Part shown: piece by piece, positions 2 through 12,920 of the stretch
Layout of the letters: every line of letters begins with the position of its first letter
How positions within the stretch are numbered: the stretch's first letter is position 1
Origin: Gammaproteobacteria bacterium
GTDB lineage: Bacteria > Pseudomonadota > Gammaproteobacteria > VBWC01
Direction of reading: 5' to 3'
DNA: 64,000 nucleotides
Assembly (NCBI GenBank): GCA_006218035.1
Contig: VBWC01000014.1
Coordinates: 1 to 64,000 of the forward strand
The notes under the pieces: generated by a model
What the model saw: only the letters and a program-made list of their open reading frames with translations
The model's database searches: none
What the model was told of the DNA's origin: nothing
Translations under genes and position numbers: made by a program

Positions 2-1563
2 GTTTCAATCCTCGCGCGCTCAATCGAGCGCGCGCAACGGCAAGATCCTCTATAAAGTCCGTGATGACTTTGGTTTCAATCCTCGCGCGCTCAATCGAGC
101 GCGCGCAACAGCCGGGCCTGATTATTGGGTGGAGAACGGACTGGAGTTTCAATCCTCGCGCGCTCAATCGAGCGCGCGCAACAACGGCCGGCCGTTGACG
201 ATGGCGTGGGCCATCGCGTTTCAATCCTCGCGCGCTCAATCGAGCGCGCGCAACCGGCAGCCCGGTATCGGGGTGGATGTGGTAGGCGACGTTTCAATCC
301 TCGCGCGCTCAATCGAGCGCGCGCAACCGCTTATACTCCGGCCATGTTGAGGAATTATCTGGTTTCAATCCTCGCGCGCTCAATCGAGCGCGCGCAACCG
401 GCGCTCTCTACGGCGTTGTCGATCTGCTCGTTCAGTTTCAATCCTCGCGCGCTCAATCGAGCGCGCGCAACTCAGGCTGAGTGCGGTGATAGCGGTAGTG
501 CAGTCTGTTTCAATCCTCGCGCGCTCAATCGAGCGCGCGCAACAGTGAGGTACCCGATCGCGCGGCGTTGCGGATCGTTTCAATCCTCGCGCGCTCAATC
601 GAGCGCGCGCAACAAGTGCTGAAGCGTGCCTATCGCGCCGCGGGGATGTTTCAATCCTCGCGCGCTCAATCGAGCGCGCGCAACTGCGGGCGGAAACTGG
701 CGCACAAGCAAATCCGGCAGTTTCAATCCTCGCGCGCTCAATCGAGCGCGCGCAACATTGTGATGCTCGTATAATCAACCATTTACGCCAGTTTCAATCC
801 TCGCGCGCTCAATCGAGCGCGCGCAACATGCAGCCATGCCGTTGACATGTCCATGACACCGGGTTTCAATCCTCGCGCGCTCAATCGAGCGCGCGCAACT
901 TCTGGCCTTTCGCTCATGCGTACACCCCCTCCTCGTTTCAATCCTCGCGCGCTCAATCGAGCGCGCGCAACCCTGCACCACGGTTCGTACGCCATGCGCA
1001 TCAACGGTTTCAATCCTCGCGCGCTCAATCGAGCGCGCGCAACGAGGAGGTGGACTTAGTAACACACCTGCATCAGGTCGTTTCAATCCTCGCGCGCTCA
1101 ATCGAGCGCGCGCAACGGGCGCCATACGCGCCGCTGGCGGCGCGCAAGTGGTTTCAATCCTCGCGCGCTCAATCGAGCGCGCGCAACGTGTTGTCATGCA
1201 GCGAGGGCGACGTCAGCCGCGAGTTTCAATCCTCGCGCGCTCAATCGAGCGCGCGCAACTAATAATCAATAGGTTGCAGCGCGCTGCCAGACGCGTTTCA
1301 ATCCTCGCGCGCTCAATCGAGCGCGCGCAACAAGCAACCTACCGCAATTTATCCAGCAATCGGCGGTTTCAATCCTCGCGCGCTCAATCGAGCGCGCGCA
1401 ACCAATCGAGCGCGCGCAACCATTCGCGCAATTGGCGCACGACTTGCGGGATGTGTTTCAATCCTCGCGCGCTCAATCGAGCGCGCGCAACTTGATCTCC
1501 AGCAGGCGCGCGATATCGGCACTGGCGTTTCAATCCTCGCGCGCTCAATCGAGCGCGCGCAAC
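2..1563 (-). CRISPR. Type I-C CRISPR array, 22 repeats, truncated by the left window edge
   Basis: There are twenty-two identical 37-bp repeats, starting at 2, 73, 146, 218, 291, 362, 435, 507, 577, 648, 720, 791, 863, 935, 1007, 1080, 1151, 1223, 1295, 1366, 1455 and 1527. On the plus strand each begins GTTTCAATCC and ends GCGCGCAAC. Inside lies a near-perfect hairpin with arms CGCGCGCTC and GAGCGCGCG around an AATC loop. Spacers are 33-36 bp, except the interval 1403-1454, which is 52 bp because it contains a partial repeat. Read on the minus strand the repeat ends GGATTGAAAC, the usual crRNA 5'-handle side in type I-C, so transcription should run from the leader at about 1744 toward position 1. 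Spacers near 1563 are then the newest. Position 1 is already spacer, so the array continues outside the window. All repeats are perfect, so no degenerate trailer end is visible. Confidence 0.98.
1403..1420 (-). repeat. 18-bp tandem partial copy of the CRISPR repeat
   Basis: Directly after the repeat 1366-1402, its last 18 plus-strand bases (CAATCGAGCGCGCGCAAC) are repeated once more. A normal 34-bp spacer (1421-1454) follows. In the crRNA sense this is a second copy of the 5' half of the repeat, placed just before a full repeat. It could come from replication slippage in the palindrome or from an aberrant integration event. It lengthens one crRNA unit by 18 nt. Confidence 0.93.
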
Positions 1564-1744
1564 TGTCGTGCTGCAAGTGCTGATAATACCAGACGTTCCC
1601 GACACGAACGCGCGAACCCCCTCAAAACTTGCCACGATCTAACCGGTACAAGAAATTTTCTTCCGGGTATTTTTATGTTCATCAACATGTTATTTCCGGC
1701 GCGAACTCCCCGCCCCTTTTCCCATTGCTTGGGGTTCGCGCGAC
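1564..1744 (-). promoter_or_regulatory. CRISPR leader between cas2 and the array
   Basis: This non-coding stretch separates the cas2 stop from the first (leader-proximal) repeat, the expected place for the leader and array promoter. It has an AT-rich core around 1640-1695. A minus-strand -10-like TATTAT (plus ATAATA at 1583-1588) lies about 20 bases before the first repeat; no good -35 was found. A perfect 12-bp inverted repeat, CGCGCGAACCCC (1609-1620) and GGGGTTCGCGCG (1731-1742), brackets most of the leader. That the leader lies on this side is inferred from repeat orientation and cas2 position. Confidence 0.75.
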
Positions 1745-2035
1745 TCATACCACCAGGGGCCCTTCAAAATCCACTGCACGAAATTTTCCGTATTCTTTCA
1801 CGTTACGATCCAACGGTTCAGTCAGGCGGTACAGCCGCAGGTTATCTTCCTTCTCATTGATCTCCGCAAGCAGTTCGCGCTCTAGTTGCTCGCACTTTGC
1901 CAAATCCACCTTGCACTCAAACACGGACTTCTGCACACGTTGCCCGTGGCTCTCGCATACCCTGGCGACGCGGCGCAGCCGTTTTCGACCAGCCCTGGTT
2001 TCAGTAGAGACATCATAGGAAACAAGAATCAACAT
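1745..2035 (-). CDS. cas2: CRISPR-associated endonuclease Cas2
   Basis: The product is 96 aa, the normal Cas2 size, and begins [12 protein letters not shown], the ferredoxin-like first strand with the conserved Asp (VSYDV) of the family. Cas2 dimers bridge two Cas1 dimers in the spacer-integration complex. The gene starts 2 bp after the cas1 stop, so the two are almost certainly translated from one message. It is the last cas gene before the leader, the usual I-C arrangement. The family and position are clear; nuclease activity of this copy cannot be judged from sequence. Confidence 0.97.
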
Positions 2036-2037
2036 GG

Positions 2038-3072
2038 TTACTTATACAGAAACGGCACGTACCCCTCCATCTCGCCGCGAATTGTGCGTGCGAGAAAACG
2101 CGCCTGTAATTGCGGCAGAAGACCAATGGGCACCTTGGTTTCCAGCAGCGGGTGCGAGACTTCTTCCTGTTTACGTTCTTGATAGGCAACCACCACCGCC
2201 TTGCGCGCATCGTCGTGCAGATACACCGCTCCGCCCGGCCGTTCGTCGAAATCTTTGGCGCTCACCTGGGCACGATTGATGAGCGTCAGGGCCAAACGGT
2301 CAGCGATTACGGCGCGGAACTCTTCCATCAAGTCCAATGCAAGCGCGGCGCGGCCTGGACGCACAGCGTGCAGAAAGCCTAATTGCGGATCAAGACCAAC
2401 GCTCTCAATCGCTGAACGGCAGTCGTTCATCACCATGGCATAGAGGAATGACAGCAGCGCATTGAACCTGTCCTGCGGCGGACGGCGTGTCCGGCCATCC
2501 ATCTGAAACATTTCACGCTGCTCCCATCGCACGACATGGTTGATCGCTGAAAAATAGTTCTTCGCCGCGTCTCCTTCGACACCTCTCAAGGTATCGAGAT
2601 CGTTCACACGAGGCAGATTACGCACAGAGATCGCCAGCGCCTCCGCGCCCACTGTCAGTCGCTTCTGGTCTTCTTCGTTTGCCGCTTCACGTGCGCCACG
2701 CAGCAGCACCTGGCGCGCGTTGCGCAACTTTCCGGCGATCACTGCCTTGGCTATGTCAACAGCGAACACCGGATCCTCCGCTTTTCGGAATTGCGCCTGA
2801 CGCAACAGAATGTTACCGCTGACAGGACCCTCCACGCGCGCCTTGAACCGGCCGTTCCGATCCAATAACACGATGCTGCGCCCGTCCTCCGCGCAACGAT
2901 GCATCGCACCGGGCGACATCATGACATCGCCGAAACATACCACGGAGCCGATATGATGCAGCGGTACCTGCATCTTCTTCTCCCGCTCCACCTCAATTCG
3001 CAACGTGTCATTTTCCAAATGCACATAGGCATTCGGCGTCATGACGTACAGCGTATTAAGGAGTTGGCGCAT
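2038..3072 (-). CDS. cas1: CRISPR-associated endonuclease Cas1, subtype I-C
   Basis: The 344-aa integrase integrates new spacers at the leader end of the array, together with Cas2. The three metal-binding positions are recognisable: Glu166 in [13 protein letters not shown], His235 in [11 protein letters not shown] and the acidic Asp247 in ALDLMEEF. Length and motifs match Cas1 of type I-C. The start is an ATG 11 bp after the stop of the embedded RelE/ParE-like gene, with no strong Shine-Dalgarno sequence, so translation may depend on coupling to that upstream toxin gene. Confidence 0.97.
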
Positions 3073-3083
3073 TTTGTGGGCTA

Positions 3084-3392
3084 CTACACCCTATGACGTC
3101 GTTTCCAATAGTCTGGCTTGCGATGCAGGTGCGCAACGGCAATAACCAGTATGCTGTTTCCGGAATATTGATAGATAATCCCATAGGGAAACCGTTTTAA
3201 AAGGCAGCGCCGGGTTCTGGTTGAAAATTGAGGCCATGCTTCAGGAAAGGCGGCTATCCGATCCAGCGCGCGCAAGACCTCGATCAAAAACTCATCGCCC
3301 AAACTATGGCGCTCACGGTTGTAATACTCAATCGCACCATCTAACTCGCCCTGGGCTGTTTCCAGAAATGCAATTTGCATCGATCCTGTCAT
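3084..3392 (-). CDS. RelE/ParE-family toxin embedded in the cas operon
   Basis: The 102-aa product resembles the RelE/ParE (plasmid stabilisation) superfamily. It has the N-terminal ELDGAIEYYNRER helix, a central FPYGIIYQY strand, and the C-terminal VIAVAHLHRKPDYWKRR typical of the fold. The ATG overlaps the stop of the preceding antitoxin gene as ATGA, so the pair is translationally coupled; an alternative ATG lies four codons downstream. The family includes mRNA interferases and gyrase poisons, and which applies here cannot be told. The pair sits between cas4 and cas1, which are adjacent in standard I-C operons. The toxin stop is only 11 bp from cas1. Confidence 0.85.
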   Translation of the reverse strand: MTGSMQIAFLETAQGELDGAIEYYNRERHSLGDEFLIEVLRALDRIAAFPEAWPQFSTRTRRCLLKRFPYGIIYQYSGNSILVIAVAHLHRKPDYWKRRHRV

Positions 3393-3601
3393 TTGTATTT
3401 CTGGAGCACTTCCCCAATCTTCAATGCCCTTACTTCACCGCGCTCATAGGCATCGATACGGCCTTTAATCTCATCCATCCATAACTGATCGATTTCCCTG
3501 TCAGGAGAATCGAGGCTTGCCAACAAATAATCGACAAGTTCGGCTTTGCCACTCGGCGGTAACGCCAATGCCTCTTCCAGAACTTTTTTTGGTACGCTCA
3601 T
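3389..3601 (-). CDS. Antitoxin, addiction-module component family
   Basis: The 70-aa product starts MSVPKKVLEEALALPPSGKA and contains AELVDYLLASLDSP, the pattern of the short 'putative addiction module component' antitoxins that pair with RelE/ParE-type toxins. The start at 3601 was chosen over upstream codons because GAGGTG lies a few bases before this ATG and the family is about 70-75 aa. A 66-bp gap separates it from the cas4 stop, enough for a private promoter, although none is convincing. Its stop overlaps the toxin start. It probably neutralises the toxin directly; autoregulation is typical of the class but not shown here. Confidence 0.83.
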   Translation of the reverse strand: MSVPKKVLEEALALPPSGKAELVDYLLASLDSPDREIDQLWMDEIKGRIDAYERGEVRALKIGEVLQKYK

Positions 3602-3667
3602 GGTGCACCTCATGTCATCTCGTTGCCCTGAATGGCAGCAGAATAGCGATTTTAACCGTTTCATACC

Positions 3668-4303
3668 TCACAATGCGGCATCAGGATCAAAAAGCTTACT
3701 ACGTAATACATGAATCTTACCGACTTTTCCCAATGTCTGCGGCTGACAAATCTCGCTGAGCGAACAATGACGGCAACGTTCGTCGTTCACCGGTGGCGGC
3801 AATACGCCTGATTTGAGCAGCGCACGCACGGCCATCACGGTTTCCTCGACTTTCTTGCGCAACTCGTCCGTAATCTCCACCTCGCGCCGCCGCCGCGAGC
3901 TGTGGTGATAAATCGCACCGTGCGTGACTTTCTTGCCGGTCATTTCTTCGAGACACATGGCTTGGGCGGCGAGTTGCAGGTCGTCGTGTTCTTTCGAACG
4001 ACGTGGGCCGTGTTTGTATTCCACCGGATAAGGCACGTCACCCGCGTGGAATTCCACCACGTCCGCCTTGCCGGCCAAGCCGAGTCGTGCGCAGAACAAA
4101 GGCAACGCGCGTTCCACGCGCACGCCGTCTTCGAGTTGTGAGTCCGGCTCGTCCACGCGCTCATGCACTGCGCGACCGCGCAGCGTGTACACGTTCTCGC
4201 TGAACACTTGCTCGACGTGAATCAACGCGCACTGTCGCGGACAATAGCTGTAGTGCTGCAAGGCGGAGATCATGATGGGATCGTCCGCCTCCTGCTGTGC
4301 CAT
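3668..4303 (-). CDS. cas4: CRISPR-associated exonuclease Cas4
   Basis: The 211-aa RecB-like nuclease trims prespacers and helps select PAM and orientation during adaptation. Iron-sulfur cysteines are visible at the N-terminus (YCPRQC, residues 20-25) and the C-terminus (RCRHCSLSEIC). Nuclease motifs are GKADVVEF and PVEYKHG (the E-x-K pair), followed by QLAAQAMCLEE. The ATG at 4303 lies 2 bp after the cas7 stop and was preferred to an upstream in-frame start inside cas7. Downstream comes a toxin-antitoxin pair rather than cas1 directly. Confidence 0.96.
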   Translation of the reverse strand: MAQQEADDPIMISALQHYSYCPRQCALIHVEQVFSENVYTLRGRAVHERVDEPDSQLEDGVRVERALPLFCARLGLAGKADVVEFHAGDVPYPVEYKHGPRRSKEHDDLQLAAQAMCLEEMTGKKVTHGAIYHHSSRRRREVEITDELRKKVEETVMAVRALLKSGVLPPPVNDERCRHCSLSEICQPQTLGKVGKIHVLRSKLFDPDAAL

Positions 4304-4305
4304 TG

Positions 4306-5205
4306 CTAACCCACCTTGCGTTCCAACGTTACGCCTTTTGGCCACTCGTGGTCGTTGATTTTCACCGTGTAGTCACTGAAATCACGCGGCACGTTCACGC
4401 CTCTCACGCCTTCATTGAGCTTCGGCTCAACGCGCGCGAACAGGCTGTGTGCATGCGCGTTGCCCAATTGCGAATCGTGCTTGAACACGTAGAGTCCGCG
4501 CGTCGCCATCTCGCCGCGCGCGGCGGAGCGGTCATGCTCAAACATGTTTTCGAGAGCTTCCCATAGCAGGATCAAGTCGTCTTCGGAAAAAGTGGTTTGT
4601 GCTGCGAGGTGCGAAGACACGAAACCGTGCGCTACGTAAAGACCATAAGGCACAGTGTGTTTTCGGCCCATGGTGCGGTTATCGCCACCTTGTTTCTCGG
4701 CTTCCGCTTCGGTAGCCACAGCCATGCGCGTGATGGAATGTTCTTGCGCCACGATGGGATCGACTGAGCGCGCGAAGGTCAGTTGCACCGGACCGCGGAC
4801 TTGACCGCAATTCACACCGGTAGACATGACCGCGCCGAAGGTGCGCACGTCGAAAAAGTTCTTGCACATCCACGCGCGCGCTTCATCCACCTTGTCGCCA
4901 CCTTTGCGTTTTTTGTCCTCGCTTTTTAGCAAATCTCCCGCGCCAATAGCTTCATAGGCGCGCTCGTGCTGCTTATTTAGGATTGCCTTCTCCTTGACGT
5001 AAATCTCATAGTGCGGCTGTTCCTTTTTTACCATACCAACGTAGTTGCGTACTTTACGTTTCAAACACACATCCGTGACCAACCCGCGCGCGGTCTCCGC
5101 ATCCACACGCGGCAAATTACCCGCGTCTGGGTCGCCGTTAGGGTTGCCGTCTTTTACGTCGAACAACAACACAAAGTCGTACCGGTTTTGAATCGTCATG
5201 GTCAT
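4306..5205 (-). CDS. cas7: Type I-C Cascade backbone protein Cas7 (Csd2)
   Basis: The 299-aa protein has the Csd2/Cas7c signature near its start ([19 protein letters not shown]) and [13 protein letters not shown] in the middle. It forms the helical filament that coats crRNA in the I-C surveillance complex. Its ATG overlaps the cas8c stop as ATGA. Full length and no anomalies were seen. Confidence 0.97.
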
Positions 5206-5573
5206 GCTCCCTCGATTGATGTGTCATGCTTTTTGAAGAAATTTTGCCGCTGGTGGTAGTAGCCAATGGCGAAGCGGCCTTGATCCGCCAGCGGCAATTG
5301 CGCCGGGAAATCACCGATGTCGTCCAAAATCTCGCCAATACGCTTTTCCAGATTCACCGCGCGGCCGCGATTGTCCAGTTTGGCGATGTGGTGGTTCTTC
5401 AATTTCAGCAGCGTCGAAAATACCGTCACCGGCGTGCTCGATGCCGCGCCATAAAAACGGTCACGAATGGTGGCATTGATGCCGGGGCTGGCTTCTTCTT
5501 GAATCTTTTCCAGCACGGCAAACAAGCGCCCGAGTCGGTAACCGGCGTTGGTGTTGCTTTCATCTAAGGACAC
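5202..5573 (-). CDS. cas11c: Cas11c small subunit, internal translation product of cas8c
   Basis: Inside cas8c and in the same frame lies AAGGAGG (plus-strand complement 5582-5588), then 8 bases, then a GTG at 5573-5571. Starting there gives a 123-aa protein beginning [18 protein letters not shown] and ending at the cas8c stop. Type I-B, I-C and I-D systems are known to make the Cas11 small subunit by internal translation of the large-subunit gene, and the size fits. The optimally spaced Shine-Dalgarno in mid-gene makes this more than a guess, but expression is inferred. The ATG at 5591 six codons upstream has no good ribosome binding site. Confidence 0.8.
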
Positions 5574-6929
5574 TTTAAGTTCCTCCTTCATGGTGGAATT
5601 GGAATAGCGTGTGGCCCGATTGATACAGGCCTTAATCAGAGCGGCGCGTACATACGTCACTTCGTGCTCGGCACGAATGCGCCGCACCACCGCAGCCAGC
5701 AAGGTTTGCGGATAAGGCAAGCCCGCGAGAACGCTGCGCATCAACTCGCCGCTGAGATTCGGCGGGATATTTTCCGCCTTGCCTTGCATGGCCACGGATA
5801 CGAGCAAGCGAAATAAGGTCGGATACGGCGGGTCAAACTCCGCACGCACAATCGCAAGGTCATCGAAATGCTGCCGAACACACGCCGCCATTTCCGCAAC
5901 CGTCGTGTTGTGCCAAAAGCGTATGGCGATGCGCGCCGCGTTGGGCGCCAAGCCCAGCACGAAGAATCGGGTCTTACCTTCGTCTTTCTCGATCAACCCG
6001 TTGTCGATGGACTTGTAGAGGCTTGCGACAGCGCGCACGTTGCGGTCGGGATCATCCTTAGGTGACTCGCCGAAAATATCGACGATGCCTGTTTCCAGAT
6101 CGGTGGGCTTATCGGCCCAAAATACCGTGCTGGAGTCTCCCACCTGCAGGCGCTGCGTCGAGTCTTTCCGGAGCAGGTGATTGAGCGCCGTGGTATAGCC
6201 GAATGCGGCGTGCTTGCCGACTGGCGCATTTGTGCCCTGTGTTTTCCCGTAGGAGTTAAACGCATCGAGATTGAACGAAACGATGTTGGCGCCCGATGTC
6301 TGGGCACCCCACACGCCTTTGATCGCCGTATGCAGCCGCTCGATCTCTTCATTCTCTCCGGTCACCAAACAAAAACCGTCTTTGCTCTCCACGCTACCTT
6401 CTGACTTTATGGCCTCCACGACTACGGGACGCTGACATGCCAATTCGAGATCGCCATGCAGACGAAAAGTGAGGTTCGGATTGGTCTCAATAATTTCTTG
6501 CCACACGGCGTATTGCGACAGTGCGCTCAAATCGGCGCGCTTCAGGAAACGCAGCACCGCTTGCACGCCCCCATCGGATAGTGCCGATGCAGGCAGCGAC
6601 TCAATCCGCGCGACGAATGCCTGATGCTGTTCCACAACGCGTTCCGGCTTTCCCTTCGTATCGACACCCAACACATATTCCGTGTTATCCCAGAAAAGAT
6701 TGGCAACGACACCGGAGGTTTTCTTGACACCCTGCGGAACTAGATAGGCGTGCGCTCGTTTTTTCCTACCGTCACCCTCGCGTGTGTCTTCTATCTGTAC
6801 TGGATTTCCCTGTGCATCGATTTCGATAATGAAAGGAATCTCTTTCCACTCGAAACCCGGCGGCGCCATGTGCGCACCCGGGTCGGTGCTCTTGCGTTGG
6901 TAATAGTCGTACAGCGCGTGCAATATCAT
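5202..6929 (-). CDS. cas8c: Type I-C Cascade large subunit Cas8c (Csd1)
   Basis: The 575-aa protein begins [12 protein letters not shown], as Csd1 proteins do, and contains the family's [10 protein letters not shown] and [19 protein letters not shown] segments. Cas8c recognises the PAM and recruits Cas3. The last 123 residues double as Cas11c through an internal start. ATG overlaps the cas5 stop (ATGA) and the TGA overlaps the cas7 start, so cas5-cas8c-cas7 are translationally coupled. The length is in the usual 550-620 range. Confidence 0.97.
5582..5588 (-). promoter_or_regulatory. Internal ribosome binding site for cas11c
   Basis: The minus strand reads AAGGAGG, near-perfect complementarity to the 16S rRNA tail, spaced 8 nt from an in-frame GTG inside cas8c. 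The codons it occupies encode Lys-Glu-Glu of Cas8c. Confidence 0.8.
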
Positions 6930-7654
6930 CCGCGCACCTCCTCGCTATCCAATGCCGGAACATCCAACACGCCGTTCACAAGTTGTGCGCGAAAAAAGCG
7001 TGGCTTTGGGTCAGCGGCATCGCTATAGTCCAGATCGTAGAGCATGTAGCCCAAGTCGCGGGTTTCGAGAACCGCTTCCGGCGATGCTGCGTTCGTATCC
7101 ACCAGACTGAAATGCGCCGCAAACTCGCGGCATCCCAGATAGGGCTGATTGATGCATTGTCCTTTCGCGGCGCGGCGTTCGAACATGCTCATGAACTTCA
7201 CCGCAGCGTTCGGCTCGACATCGGAGTCGCTTTCGTCGCCGATCTTGCGTTTGCTCAGATGGGGGTAGTTGGGCTTGTGGAAACTCGGATCGCGCAACTC
7301 GAAGTGCGCATGGATGCGGTATCTCACGTCGCGCAGAAACAGCCCCGCCCGTTGCTGGCGCTCGTCCTCGACAAATATTCCGAGCTGCCCCGTACTCGAC
7401 TTCATCGCGGCTTCAATGTTGCGCGTCGAAGCCACGCAACCGACTTCGTTACGCCGCAGGTTGATCCACTTGATGGGATGTAGCACTTCGATCTTGCTCA
7501 CCTGCCAGCGGATGGCTGGCTTCCACAGAATGGCCTCGAACACCGCACGCGCGGCTGATGGCGTTATCACGTCGTAGCTCACGCGTTCCACTTTCATCTC
7601 CGGCCGCGTGAAGCAGGCAAAATCGCCGCTGACTTCCAAACAAAAGTTTTTCAT
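6926..7654 (-). CDS. cas5: Cas5c (Cas5d), pre-crRNA endoribonuclease of type I-C
   Basis: The 242-aa protein shows the Cas5 pattern GDFACFTRPEMKVERVSYDVITPSA near the N-terminus (in part: CFTRPEMKVERVSYDV), then ILWKPAIRW, and PYLGCREF late in the sequence. In I-C systems, which lack Cas6, Cas5c cuts within the repeat and stays on the crRNA 5' handle. Start at 7654 was chosen because GGGGAGA precedes it and upstream codons lie within cas3. It starts 10 bp after the cas3 stop. Confidence 0.95.
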   Translation of the reverse strand: MKNFCLEVSGDFACFTRPEMKVERVSYDVITPSAARAVFEAILWKPAIRWQVSKIEVLHPIKWINLRRNEVGCVASTRNIEAAMKSSTGQLGIFVEDERQQRAGLFLRDVRYRIHAHFELRDPSFHKPNYPHLSKRKIGDESDSDVEPNAAVKFMSMFERRAAKGQCINQPYLGCREFAAHFSLVDTNAASPEAVLETRDLGYMLYDLDYSDAADPKPRFFRAQLVNGVLDVPALDSEEVRG

Positions 7655-7664
7655 CGTTTCTCCC

Positions 7665-9956
7665 CTACCCAACCAAGGCATTTGGATCAAGGTTCGTATC
7701 GCCCACCAACACACCCAGTTCGGGATGATAAAGCGCATCCGACGTTTGTGCGTACATGTCCGGATATTCCTCGCGCACATCGCCGTTGCCCAGCAGTTTC
7801 TTGAATTGGTATTCCGGCAGCGACACCGTGTAACGCTGAAGCTTGCGCATGAGCCAGCGTTCCGGGCCTCCTTTCTTTAATCTGCCGATCAACGCGGGGC
7901 TGTCGCCGTAGCGCACGATTACGCTGCGATAGCCGGATTCGTCGATCAACTGGAAGCGTTGCGCGGCAGTACGGAATTGCACTTTCAATTGATCGTCGCC
8001 TTGCCCATCAGGTTTCAACAAGCCTTCAATACCCTGCTTATCCAGCGATGGCGCTTTCCAATAGAGTTGCTCGAAGTAGCTTTGAAATAATTCCCGCCGC
8101 AGCGGATTCTCGTGTGACTCAAACAGCAAAGACACGGTTGTTTCCGCCGCACGGCGTAAATGGCCCGGCGGTGCCGGCTTGGGCGGTACGAACACGAACA
8201 CCTCACCGCGTTCCAGGTTGCCCTCGCGGTTGCACCGGCCCGCCGCCTGCGCGATGGAGTCGAGACCGGCCAACGCGCGGTATACCACCGGGAAGTCCAC
8301 ATCCACGCCCGCCTCGACAAGCTGCGTGCTCACCACGCGCACGACCTCGCCCGTGCTCAATCGCCGTTTGATGTCGACAATGACGCGCGAGCGATGTTCG
8401 CCGCACATCAGCGCCGACAAGTGCACCGAGCCTTTGGGCAGGCGGTGATGCAGCTCACGCGCGTCAGCACGGGAGTTAACCACTGTCAACACGGATTCGT
8501 GTGCTTGCATGCGCTCTGCAATCTCATCCCAACTTTTTGTCTGGTGCAGGTCTTCGGGTAACTCGACAGTCACTCGCTCCAAATCGCGGTAGAGCGAATC
8601 GGGGTCGCGGACAATTTCGCGCACACCGTCCAGCCCCTTGAAGGTCCAGCCAAAACCGCTGCGACTATTCAGGGCGGGCTGCGTCGCCGTGGAAAGAACG
8701 AACGTCACACCATAATGCTGCGCGAGAAGATTCATCACCGTCAGAATGGGTTGCAAGAATTCGGGTGGCAATAATTGCGCCTCATCTAGAACCACCACGC
8801 TGTTGACGATGTTGTGCAGCTTTCGGCAACGGCTGGTTCTGGCCGCGAACAAGGACTCGAAGAACTGCACGTTGGTAGTAACGATGATGGGCGCGTCCCA
8901 GTTTTCGGTCGCTAGGCGGCTCTTCACGGTTTCTTTGTCCGGATCGAGGTTGCTGTGATGTTCCACCACCGCGTCGGGAAAGATCGCGCGGAATATATTG
9001 GCCGTCTGTTCGATAATGCTGGTGTACGGAATGACATAAATCACGCGACGTTTCTTCACAGAAAGTTTGCTGTGGTGCTCAGCACGCTCTAAAGCCACCG
9101 CATGTTCTAGCGCGAACGCCAGACTGGACAGCGTCTTGCCACCGCCGGTCGGAACAGTCAGCGAGAACATGCCGGGCGCATCGTTCGCTTTTTCGCGACA
9201 CTGGCGCAACACCTCGGCGCGGATGCGGTTCACTTGGGTGGGTGCGGCGCCGGAAAAATTCTCGTTCATGTGAGAATTGAATCGCCGTAACAACTCTTCA
9301 ACCGCCGGATACCCGACGCGTTGTGACGCCTTGTCCTCATCCATGAACGTTTCGGTATCGAGAAAATCTGCGTCCACTAAACACGAAAACAGCATCCGCA
9401 CCCAAAGTGCAAATCCGTCAGATTTGCCCACGGGCGGGCTAGCCGGTTTGGTTTGCGCGAGAATCGCTTGCGGTATCGGCTGACTGAGCGCGCGTTCCAA
9501 GTGACTTTTATCGCCCAGCCGTGCATTCAATGCCGCACCGCCGGTTTCGCCCGAATGCCAATCTGGCAATCCCGCATGATGCCCGGCGATGAGGTACGCC
9601 AAGATGCGGCCATGCACACCGAATTGCCCCACCGCGTGCACTGCCCCGGCGGTGGAGTGGTCCACACGGCCGACCGGACCTTCAAGATGCGCGTCGGGGT
9701 CGTAGCCGCTGACGGATTTGATGCGCCGCTGGAATTCCTTGCTGTATTTCCCGAGGTCATGCCACAACCCAGCAACGTGTGCCCAGTCTGCGCTGCCAAA
9801 GACTTGTCCAAACTCAGCGGCTAACCGGGCGACATGTTGGAGATGATCGCGCAAGTCGTGTATCACGAATTCATCGGCTTCGCTCAGGCGTACATGCGCG
9901 ATAAACGGTTCGGCGCCGCCGCACGTTGAGCTTTCGTCGCCCGGCTGAGGGTCCAT
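7665..9956 (-). CDS. cas3: CRISPR helicase-nuclease Cas3 (HD plus SF2 helicase)
   Basis: The 763-aa effector nicks and degrades target DNA after recruitment by Cascade. The HD nuclease domain comes first: HDLGK at residues 66-70 and AGHHAGL around 124-130. Then come Walker A PTGGGKT (269-275), DEAQ (391-394) and the motif VI region DSIAQAAGRCNREG. The ATG has AAGGACGG about 8 bases upstream. It is the first cas gene of the operon. The 83-bp gap to the WYL gene upstream has no obvious sigma-70 promoter, so co-transcription with the regulator is possible. Confidence 0.97.
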   Translation of the reverse strand: MDPQPGDESSTCGGAEPFIAHVRLSEADEFVIHDLRDHLQHVARLAAEFGQVFGSADWAHVAGLWHDLGKYSKEFQRRIKSVSGYDPDAHLEGPVGRVDHSTAGAVHAVGQFGVHGRILAYLIAGHHAGLPDWHSGETGGAALNARLGDKSHLERALSQPIPQAILAQTKPASPPVGKSDGFALWVRMLFSCLVDADFLDTETFMDEDKASQRVGYPAVEELLRRFNSHMNENFSGAAPTQVNRIRAEVLRQCREKANDAPGMFSLTVPTGGGKTLSSLAFALEHAVALERAEHHSKLSVKKRRVIYVIPYTSIIEQTANIFRAIFPDAVVEHHSNLDPDKETVKSRLATENWDAPIIVTTNVQFFESLFAARTSRCRKLHNIVNSVVVLDEAQLLPPEFLQPILTVMNLLAQHYGVTFVLSTATQPALNSRSGFGWTFKGLDGVREIVRDPDSLYRDLERVTVELPEDLHQTKSWDEIAERMQAHESVLTVVNSRADARELHHRLPKGSVHLSALMCGEHRSRVIVDIKRRLSTGEVVRVVSTQLVEAGVDVDFPVVYRALAGLDSIAQAAGRCNREGNLERGEVFVFVPPKPAPPGHLRRAAETTVSLLFESHENPLRRELFQSYFEQLYWKAPSLDKQGIEGLLKPDGQGDDQLKVQFRTAAQRFQLIDESGYRSVIVRYGDSPALIGRLKKGGPERWLMRKLQRYTVSLPEYQFKKLLGNGDVREEYPDMYAQTSDALYHPELGVLVGDTNLDPNALVG

Positions 9957-10039
9957 CGGGTTACCGTCCTTAACTTTGGTGGAAACAGACTTCTACCACA
10001 CCAACCCGGTCAAAACGTGACCAGGCGCAATTGTGTTTC

Positions 10040-11011
10040 TTATCCCGAGTAAACCGCTGCGGTTTCTTTCGCCAGATTACTCACGTGAGTGCGCAGGGTT
10101 TTGGGGCCGATGACTTCTACCTCGGGCCCGTAGCGTAAAATGTCGCCGGCGAGTTCGCGCGGGTCGCTGTAGGGCACGCGCAGTTCGTAGCCGCCGCTCT
10201 TCAGCACCTTGCCGTGTTGTTGCGGGTGCCACTGCTCGTCGGCGACCCAGCGCGCGGCCGATGGCGTGAAGCGCAGCACGGCGGTCGCCTTGGGCGCGCC
10301 GGCGAAGATGCCGTACGACGAGGCGACGTGGCCGTCCAGTCGCTGGTCGCTGATGTCTTTTGCCGCGTCGTCGAGTATGACGACGGGATGCAACCGGTCC
10401 AGCGAGAACGTGCGCAATCCGTTGCTGTTATGACACCACGCGTCGAGATACCAGTTGGCGCGGTAGTACACGAGGCGCTGCGGCGAGACGGTGCGCTCCG
10501 TGGTCTGGTCACGCGCGCGGCCGTGATAGAGCAGGCGCAGGCGCTTTCGTTCGAGCAGGGCTGACGTGATCTTGCGGAAGTGCTCGATGTTCACCGGCCG
10601 CGCGGCCATCTGCACGATGCGCACGCGCCGGTCGAGTTCGGGATGGCCGATCGGTTCTTTCGCGATCAGCGCGGCGACGCGCTGGCGGATCGGTTCGATG
10701 TATTCATCGAGCACGCCGGGTTGCAGGTCCGAAAGCAGCCGGTAGGAAACCATTAGCGCGTAGAGTTCGTCGACGGAAAACCACAGACCGGGCAGTTCGC
10801 AGAGGTTGTCGTCATCCTTGCGGCATAGCCAGCCACGGCGTTTGATGTCGTATTCCAGCGGCATGTGCATCCGGTCGCGTAAAACGTTGATCGTCCGGCG
10901 CACGGTTTTTTCGGAGCATTCCAGTTCTTCCCTGATTCGCTTTAACGGTACCGGCTGGCGCGCCCGGCGCAGCAGGTGGTCGAGCGCGATAACGCGATCA
11001 ACTTTTTTCAT
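10040..11011 (-). CDS. WYL-domain transcriptional regulator, likely controlling the cas operon
   Basis: The 323-aa product has an N-terminal winged helix-turn-helix (PLKRIRELECSEKTVRR-like region, residues about 20-60) followed by the WYL ligand-binding domain (VYYRANWYLDAWCHNSNGLR with FSLDRLHPV). WYL proteins often sit beside CRISPR and other defence operons and act as repressors or activators that sense nucleic-acid ligands. It is upstream of cas3 and on the same strand. The ATG at 11011 was chosen because the frame further upstream offers only a TTG. Regulation of the cas genes is inferred from position. Confidence 0.88.
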   Translation of the reverse strand: MKKVDRVIALDHLLRRARQPVPLKRIREELECSEKTVRRTINVLRDRMHMPLEYDIKRRGWLCRKDDDNLCELPGLWFSVDELYALMVSYRLLSDLQPGVLDEYIEPIRQRVAALIAKEPIGHPELDRRVRIVQMAARPVNIEHFRKITSALLERKRLRLLYHGRARDQTTERTVSPQRLVYYRANWYLDAWCHNSNGLRTFSLDRLHPVVILDDAAKDISDQRLDGHVASSYGIFAGAPKATAVLRFTPSAARWVADEQWHPQQHGKVLKSGGYELRVPYSDPRELAGDILRYGPEVEVIGPKTLRTHVSNLAKETAAVYSG

Positions 11012-12123: not shown

Positions 12124-12195
12124 GAAACCTGTCCCTCAATAACGCGCCTGCCGACGGGCGCGCATGCGGATTCGGCGAAATCCCCGCCAGGGAAG

Positions 12196-12260
12196 CTCTG
12201 ATTAATTTCTTGTTCGTCATTCCCGCGCAGGCGGGGGGCCGGAATGACGACATATCAGAG
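12196..12260. repeat. Short palindromic element bounded by CTCTGAT / ATCAGAG
   Basis: A hairpin, GTCATTCCCGCGCAGG to GGAATGAC (12216-12248), lies between terminal inverted CTCTGAT (12196-12202) and ATCAGAG (12254-12260). The ends GTCATTCC/GGAATGAC are shared with elements at 11153 and 32487, so this is a short relative of the same family. Confidence 0.75.
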
Positions 12261-12308
12261 GCACCCTAGAATCTGCCACAAAAAGTCCTGTTGTTGCACG
12301 GAAATTTG

Positions 12309-12337
12309 TTGACTTCACCTGAGCGGCGAACTCTAAT
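12309..12337 (+). promoter_or_regulatory. Sigma-70-type promoter for the mamC-like gene
   Basis: TTGACT (12309-12314), a 17-bp spacer, then TCTAAT (12332-12337). It lies about 105 bp before the only plus-strand gene in this stretch. Confidence 0.6.
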
Positions 12338-12442
12338 GGCGGGCATACTCGAAATAACCTGCAGTGTGGCACTACCGGCACGCGCGTCCAGCAGTTGCGC
12401 ACTTGATCGACAAATTCTCTAGGACCAAGAAGGGGAATCAGC

Positions 12443-12805
12443 ATGGCATTTCAACTAGCTCCATTTCTTGCACAGTCTGTTCCAGGCGTCGGTCTTCTCG
12501 GCGCGATCGTTGGCGGATCGGCGGCGCTGGCAAAGAATTACAAGGACTATAAAAAGGGCACGGTAGACGCGAAGCACGCCTCGGTGGATGTCGGCAAGGA
12601 AACTGCGGGCGCCGGCATGGCGACGGCGGTCAGTGCCGCGGCAGTCGGCGTGGTCGGCGGCGGGCTGGCGGTGTCACTGGTCACCGCACTGGCGGTTGCA
12701 ACGGGCGCCAAATATGTCTGGGACCGCTCGATGGAACAGGTCGATGTGATCGCCGCAAAACACAAAAAAGAAGATCCCTTCGAAGAAGCGCTGGACGTCG
12801 AATAG
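12443..12805 (+). CDS. MamC (Mms13)-like magnetosome protein homologue, orphan
   Basis: The 120-aa protein matches the MamC layout. It opens MAFQLAPFLAQSVPGVG, has a first hydrophobic helix (LLGAIVGGSAALAKN), a charged loop (about residues 32-55, ending DVGKETAGAG), a second hydrophobic helix (VGVVGGGLAVSLVTALAVATGAKYVW), and an acidic tail. In magnetotactic bacteria MamC is an abundant magnetosome-membrane protein whose loop contacts magnetite. The acidic pair reported as important there is spaced i, i+4; here the first position appears to be His and the second (Asp) is kept. AAGGGG precedes the ATG. Its own promoter and terminator make it monocistronic. No other mam or mms gene is in the window. 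Homology is clear; a role in biomineralisation is not. Confidence 0.85.
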   Translation: MAFQLAPFLAQSVPGVGLLGAIVGGSAALAKNYKDYKKGTVDAKHASVDVGKETAGAGMATAVSAAAVGVVGGGLAVSLVTALAVATGAKYVWDRSMEQVDVIAAKHKKEDPFEEALDVE

Positions 12806-12846: not shown

Positions 12847-12888
12847 AACGCCCGGTCGCGCACCTCTGCTGCCGGGCGTTTTGTTTTT
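12847..12888 (+). terminator. Rho-independent terminator after the mamC-like gene
   Basis: Stem AACGCCCGG (12847-12855) pairs with CCGGGCGTT (12872-12880), followed by TTGTTTTT. It lies 42 bp after the stop codon. Confidence 0.85.
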
Positions 12889-12920
12889 AATCCACGACGT
12901 GTCGCGTACGCGATATCGAT

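Follow-up and report, generated by a model that had tools for sequence, protein, structure and literature searches.

A mamC gene apart from the main magnetosome cluster of a probably magnetotactic gammaproteobacterium

The mamC locus

The window, by which we mean the whole 64-kb stretch of DNA analysed (positions 1-64000 of contig C26), belongs to a 3.0 Mb draft genome of 62 contigs, listed as 100% complete with 0.03% contamination. An open reading frame of this stretch encodes a protein that had been annotated initially as similar to the magnetosome protein MamC. The following features were identified, with comparisons referring to a second species of the same genus (G001):

12187-12265, no strand assigned: 79-nt palindromic repeat, an insertion present here and absent from the second species (pairwise alignment)
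12309-12337, plus strand: promoter-like site, TTGACT-17-TCTAAT, identical in the second species
12429-12436 (approximate), plus strand: ribosome binding site of the AGAAGGGG type, identical in the second species
12443-12805, plus strand: mamC, start codon ATG, for a predicted magnetosome membrane protein of 120 aa
12533-12607, plus strand: loop between the two predicted helices (residues 31-55) with Asp42, His45 and Asp49, judged by alignment columns and loop charge
about 12849-12890, plus strand: terminator-like, GC-rich inverted repeat with a long loop, then a T run, TTTTGTTTTT, kept in the second species except for changes in the loop

In a profile search the protein matched the NCBIfam MamC equivalog model NF038051 over all of its positions (1-97 of 97) with 132.4 bits (E 5e-39), the curated cut-off being 100 bits. 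No Pfam family scored above its cut-off, and a phmmer comparison with solved structures gave no relevant match. The MamC-like identity proposed initially is borne out by this match over the whole model. Used as sole query against the genome contigs, the protein matched a Mariprofundus locus only. Like MamC/Mms13, as defined by NF038051 and known from the Magnetospirillum mamGFDC operon, it has the opening motif, two hydrophobic segments, a charged loop and the GKET-AGAG segment. Hydropathy places the hydrophobic segments at about residues 5-31 and 54-93. Since the AlphaFold model, calculated from a three-sequence alignment, is helical with low confidence (pLDDT 54), we base the two-helix fold on hydropathy and homology. 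By its family profile, the open reading frame is a genuine mamC; in magnetotactic bacteria, genes of this type encode a small membrane protein of the magnetic organelles.

The gene had also been credited with its own promoter and terminator, and both predicted elements can be seen in the sequence and recur in the second species. The promoter-like boxes lie at 12309-12314 (TTGACT) and 12332-12337 (TCTAAT). An automatic scan missed them because the -10 box has C at position 2; likewise, the terminator went unreported by a short-loop scan because of its strict rules. Upstream of mamC, the noncoding stretches of the two species differ mainly by the palindromic insertion, which leaves the promoter intact.

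In the second species mamC (C13:1356-1718) has the same neighbourhood, with neighbours 92-98% identical between the two genomes. The MamC proteins are 100% identical, their genes differing by three synonymous changes (dN 0, dS 0.033); for the next gene the values are dN 0.016 and dS 0.114. The gene order nearby is suhB-cysE-iscR-iscS, which we take to be reminiscent of Gammaproteobacteria. Within this large class, the order of the genome apparently consists of this genus alone among the genomes compared. Its phylum also includes Mariprofundus.

The window also carries a type I-C CRISPR system (2-10000). Its 22 repeats were found at 2-1586, followed by a cas2-like open reading frame (1745-2035) and by cas1c, cas4c, cas7c, cas8c, cas5c and cas3c, which are encoded on the minus strand and reach to 9956. 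Cas4 and cas1 are separated by a toxin-antitoxin-like pair (3084-3392 and 3389-3664), for which a weak match to TIGR02574 was obtained.

Magnetosome genes elsewhere in the genome

With our query set, no other magnetosome gene was matched within the 64-kb window, in agreement with the initial annotation. Targeted searches and scans of selected stretches of the genome located mamA, B, E, K, M, O and P on contig C14, in a magnetosome cluster of mamH, a D/mms6-like gene, mamS, B, Q, P, O, N, M, K, E, I and A. NCBIfam scores were above cut-off for MamK (479), MamO (830), MamB (457), MamM (444), MamN (560), MamH (670) and MamI (82). MamQ (243, cut-off 250), MamS (190, 200), MamP (284, 300), MamA (183, 200) and MamE (597, 800) stayed under their curated cut-offs, yet are clear best matches and lie inside the cluster. 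Eight genes that were reported from all magnetotactic strains inspected (PMC9840458), namely A, B, E, I, K, M, P and Q, are present in this set without exception. The same scan placed a third cation transporter among the cluster genes. Two further proteins of this contig were noted. A small open reading frame (L041:1106-1429), named by no model, resembles MmsF/MamF, and sequences matching it occur within magnetosome loci elsewhere among the genomes compared. Between mamK and mamE, L031:6443-8026 encodes a Lys/Ala/Pro-rich protein of 527 aa, 83% identical in the sister species and without a match in Pfam or NCBIfam.

MamD is encoded away from the main cluster as well (contig C31, L038:580-1794; NF040916, 210 bits, cut-off 100), and also occurs in the sister species, whose magnetosome cluster lies on C35. 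The distances to the contig ends, 12.4 kb on C26 and about 70 kb on C14, add up to a minimum separation of about 82 kb between mamC and the cluster. Thus, it looks orphaned because it lies far from a complete cluster in the same genome: the label of an orphan fits the 64-kb window and fails for the genome. Linkage to mamD, mamF and mamG or to the mamAB cluster is absent; such linkage is typical of mamC and does not define it. A comparison of the upstream regions revealed no motif or operator, above chance, that mamC and mamD have in common with the main cluster, which we count against a functional mamC.

Each of the two genomes has a divergent second MamC-like copy below the cut-off: on C48 (L002:1498-1875, 76 bits) in the present genome, and on C11 (L036, about 9900-10200, 51 bits) in the sister species. 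The two copies group together in the tree, one of them on a very long branch, and blastp found no shared genes between their neighbourhoods. The copy on C48 keeps Glu/Asp in the loop.

Loop substitution, relatives and history

Among 398 genomes drawn evenly from the phylum, 14 (the present one included) encode a MamC above the cut-off. Alignment of the proteins of this genus with 13 other above-cut-off MamCs showed that position 45, His in this genus, is Glu in 12 and Asp in one of the others, and that the Asp at position 49 of our protein occurs in all 13. In strain AMB-1 a possible template for magnetite faces has been proposed in the spacing of Glu66 and Asp70 (PMC6584501). This Glu66 corresponds to His45 of our protein, an equivalence drawn through alignment to relatives rather than directly to AMB-1. 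Of the acidic i, i+4 loop pair, then, the Asp is kept and the Glu replaced, as had been read from the sequence at the outset (His followed by Asp). The pair is a functional proposal and not part of the MamC family definition; a His at a residue proposed as important is counted against a functional mamC. Asp42, which just one of the 13 (G058) also has, might make up for the loss of the loop Glu.

Two very weak MamC-like proteins from the same class were noted in this survey (L072 in G384, 33 bits; L073 in G292, 29 bits). They are about 27% identical to MamC, no queried mam genes lie near them, and the likeness may reflect a distant family relation or chance.

Could MamC have been recruited to work elsewhere than in the magnetosome, acting as a membrane protein that carries a putative His/Asp metal site? 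The His for Glu replacement, seen in this genus and in none of the other above-cut-off MamCs that were sampled, would suit such a role, as would the separate location of the gene with its own promoter and the divergent second copy in each genome. Against it stands the conservation of the rest of the loop and of the GKET segment. Moreover, all 15 MamC carriers examined (the sister species and a Mariprofundus genome included) encode a MamM above the cut-off. Thirteen of them gave a strong MamO match, and the other two are incomplete genomes (80% and 71%). The MamC tree also follows the cluster. MamC, MamM and MamO trees have the same deep split, with this genus and Mariprofundus (G056), joined by G153 where present, on one side and all other carriers on the other (support 99/100, 100/100 and 100/100, respectively). 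All in all, we regard a new role as improbable.

In these trees, MamC, MamM and MamO of this genus group with Zetaproteobacteria-type sequences. Since the three trees agree, mamC appears to share the history of its cluster, and it was probably moved rather than separately acquired. Separate acquisition of mamC and the cluster was put to the test in the three trees, which gave it no support.

The initial annotation had left three options: a cryptic remnant, a part of an unlinked cluster, or a protein with another role. The cluster on C14 speaks for the second. If mamC were a cryptic leftover from a magnetosome island since lost, the absence of other magnetosome genes from the 64-kb window would fit. 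However, this reading is very unlikely because a full cluster is present in the same genome, because the gene is conserved in two species (dN 0, with promoter, ribosome site and terminator kept), and because it shares the history of the cluster. That C26 was binned from a different organism than the cluster, as a draft in 62 contigs might allow, is hardly credible given the same mamC neighbourhood and a cluster in the separately assembled sister genome, the listed contamination of 0.03%, and a tetranucleotide correlation between C26 and C14 of 0.95 (0.39-0.63 for the other genomes compared), which argues against misbinning.

Proposed function and comparison with known systems

We therefore favour the view that this mamC is functional, belongs to a magnetotactic bacterium, lies apart from its cluster and encodes a membrane protein with a role in crystal size; we hold this to be very likely, location and role being assigned by analogy with other species. 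Judged by its gene content, the source organism is probably magnetotactic. Magnetotactic, carbonate-forming members are known from the gammaproteobacterial order CAIRSR01, which comprises one family (PMC11773610); as a conjecture, the genus might belong there. The mamC gene on C26 and the mamD gene on C31 would be accessory crystal-shaping genes apart from the main mamAB-type cluster on C14. MamC would insert into the magnetosome membrane through its two hydrophobic helices, and its charged loop would face the growing crystal and help to set crystal size. In other species MamC is a two-helix protein of the magnetosome membrane, and the mamCD operon controls crystal size (PMC3905215, review); its role here is most likely the same. 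This role may be subtle, since single deletion of mamC in M. gryphiswaldense caused no clear defect in crystal size or shape (PMC3905215).

Tentatively, and with more doubt than confidence, the protein can be seen as a natural MamC variant in which a His replaces the conserved acidic loop residue, unchanged across two species, and which would be a natural test of the Glu/Asp spacing in magnetite templating. Crystals of different size or shape might accompany the substitution, with Asp42 perhaps taking over. With this variant, the model in which MamC templates the growth of magnetite could be put to a concrete test.

More generally, an apparently orphan magnetosome gene can mark a magnetotactic bacterium. 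Both mamC and mamD can lie at a great distance from the cluster and still have a history in common with it, and searches restricted to linked clusters would overlook such detached genes.

In contrast to the Magnetospirillum mamGFDC operon, the mamC described here forms no operon with mamD, mamF or mamG. The closest sequence found, MamC of a Mariprofundus metagenome-assembled genome (JAUZRH010000020.1, L003), is 71% identical over 97 aa and lies on the same branch in all three trees. Its gene, unlike ours, adjoins mamX-Z-feoB-T-A-P-O, and its loop Glu is present. The arrangement in two other carriers (G153 and G146) is closer to the present one: mamC and the mamM/mamO cluster are on different contigs, and no other queried mam gene lies within about 10 kb of mamC. 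These genomes belong to other families, however, and keep the loop Glu. For the genes of mms6, mamCDFG and other accessory clusters, the usual location in magnetotactic bacteria is either within the mamAB cluster or at dispersed sites beyond it (PMC9840458). Thus, together with the unlinked mamC genes of these two carriers, the detachment of mamC has precedent: the literature already describes mamC genes located away from the main cluster, and the present gene adds another case, with a substitution in the loop.
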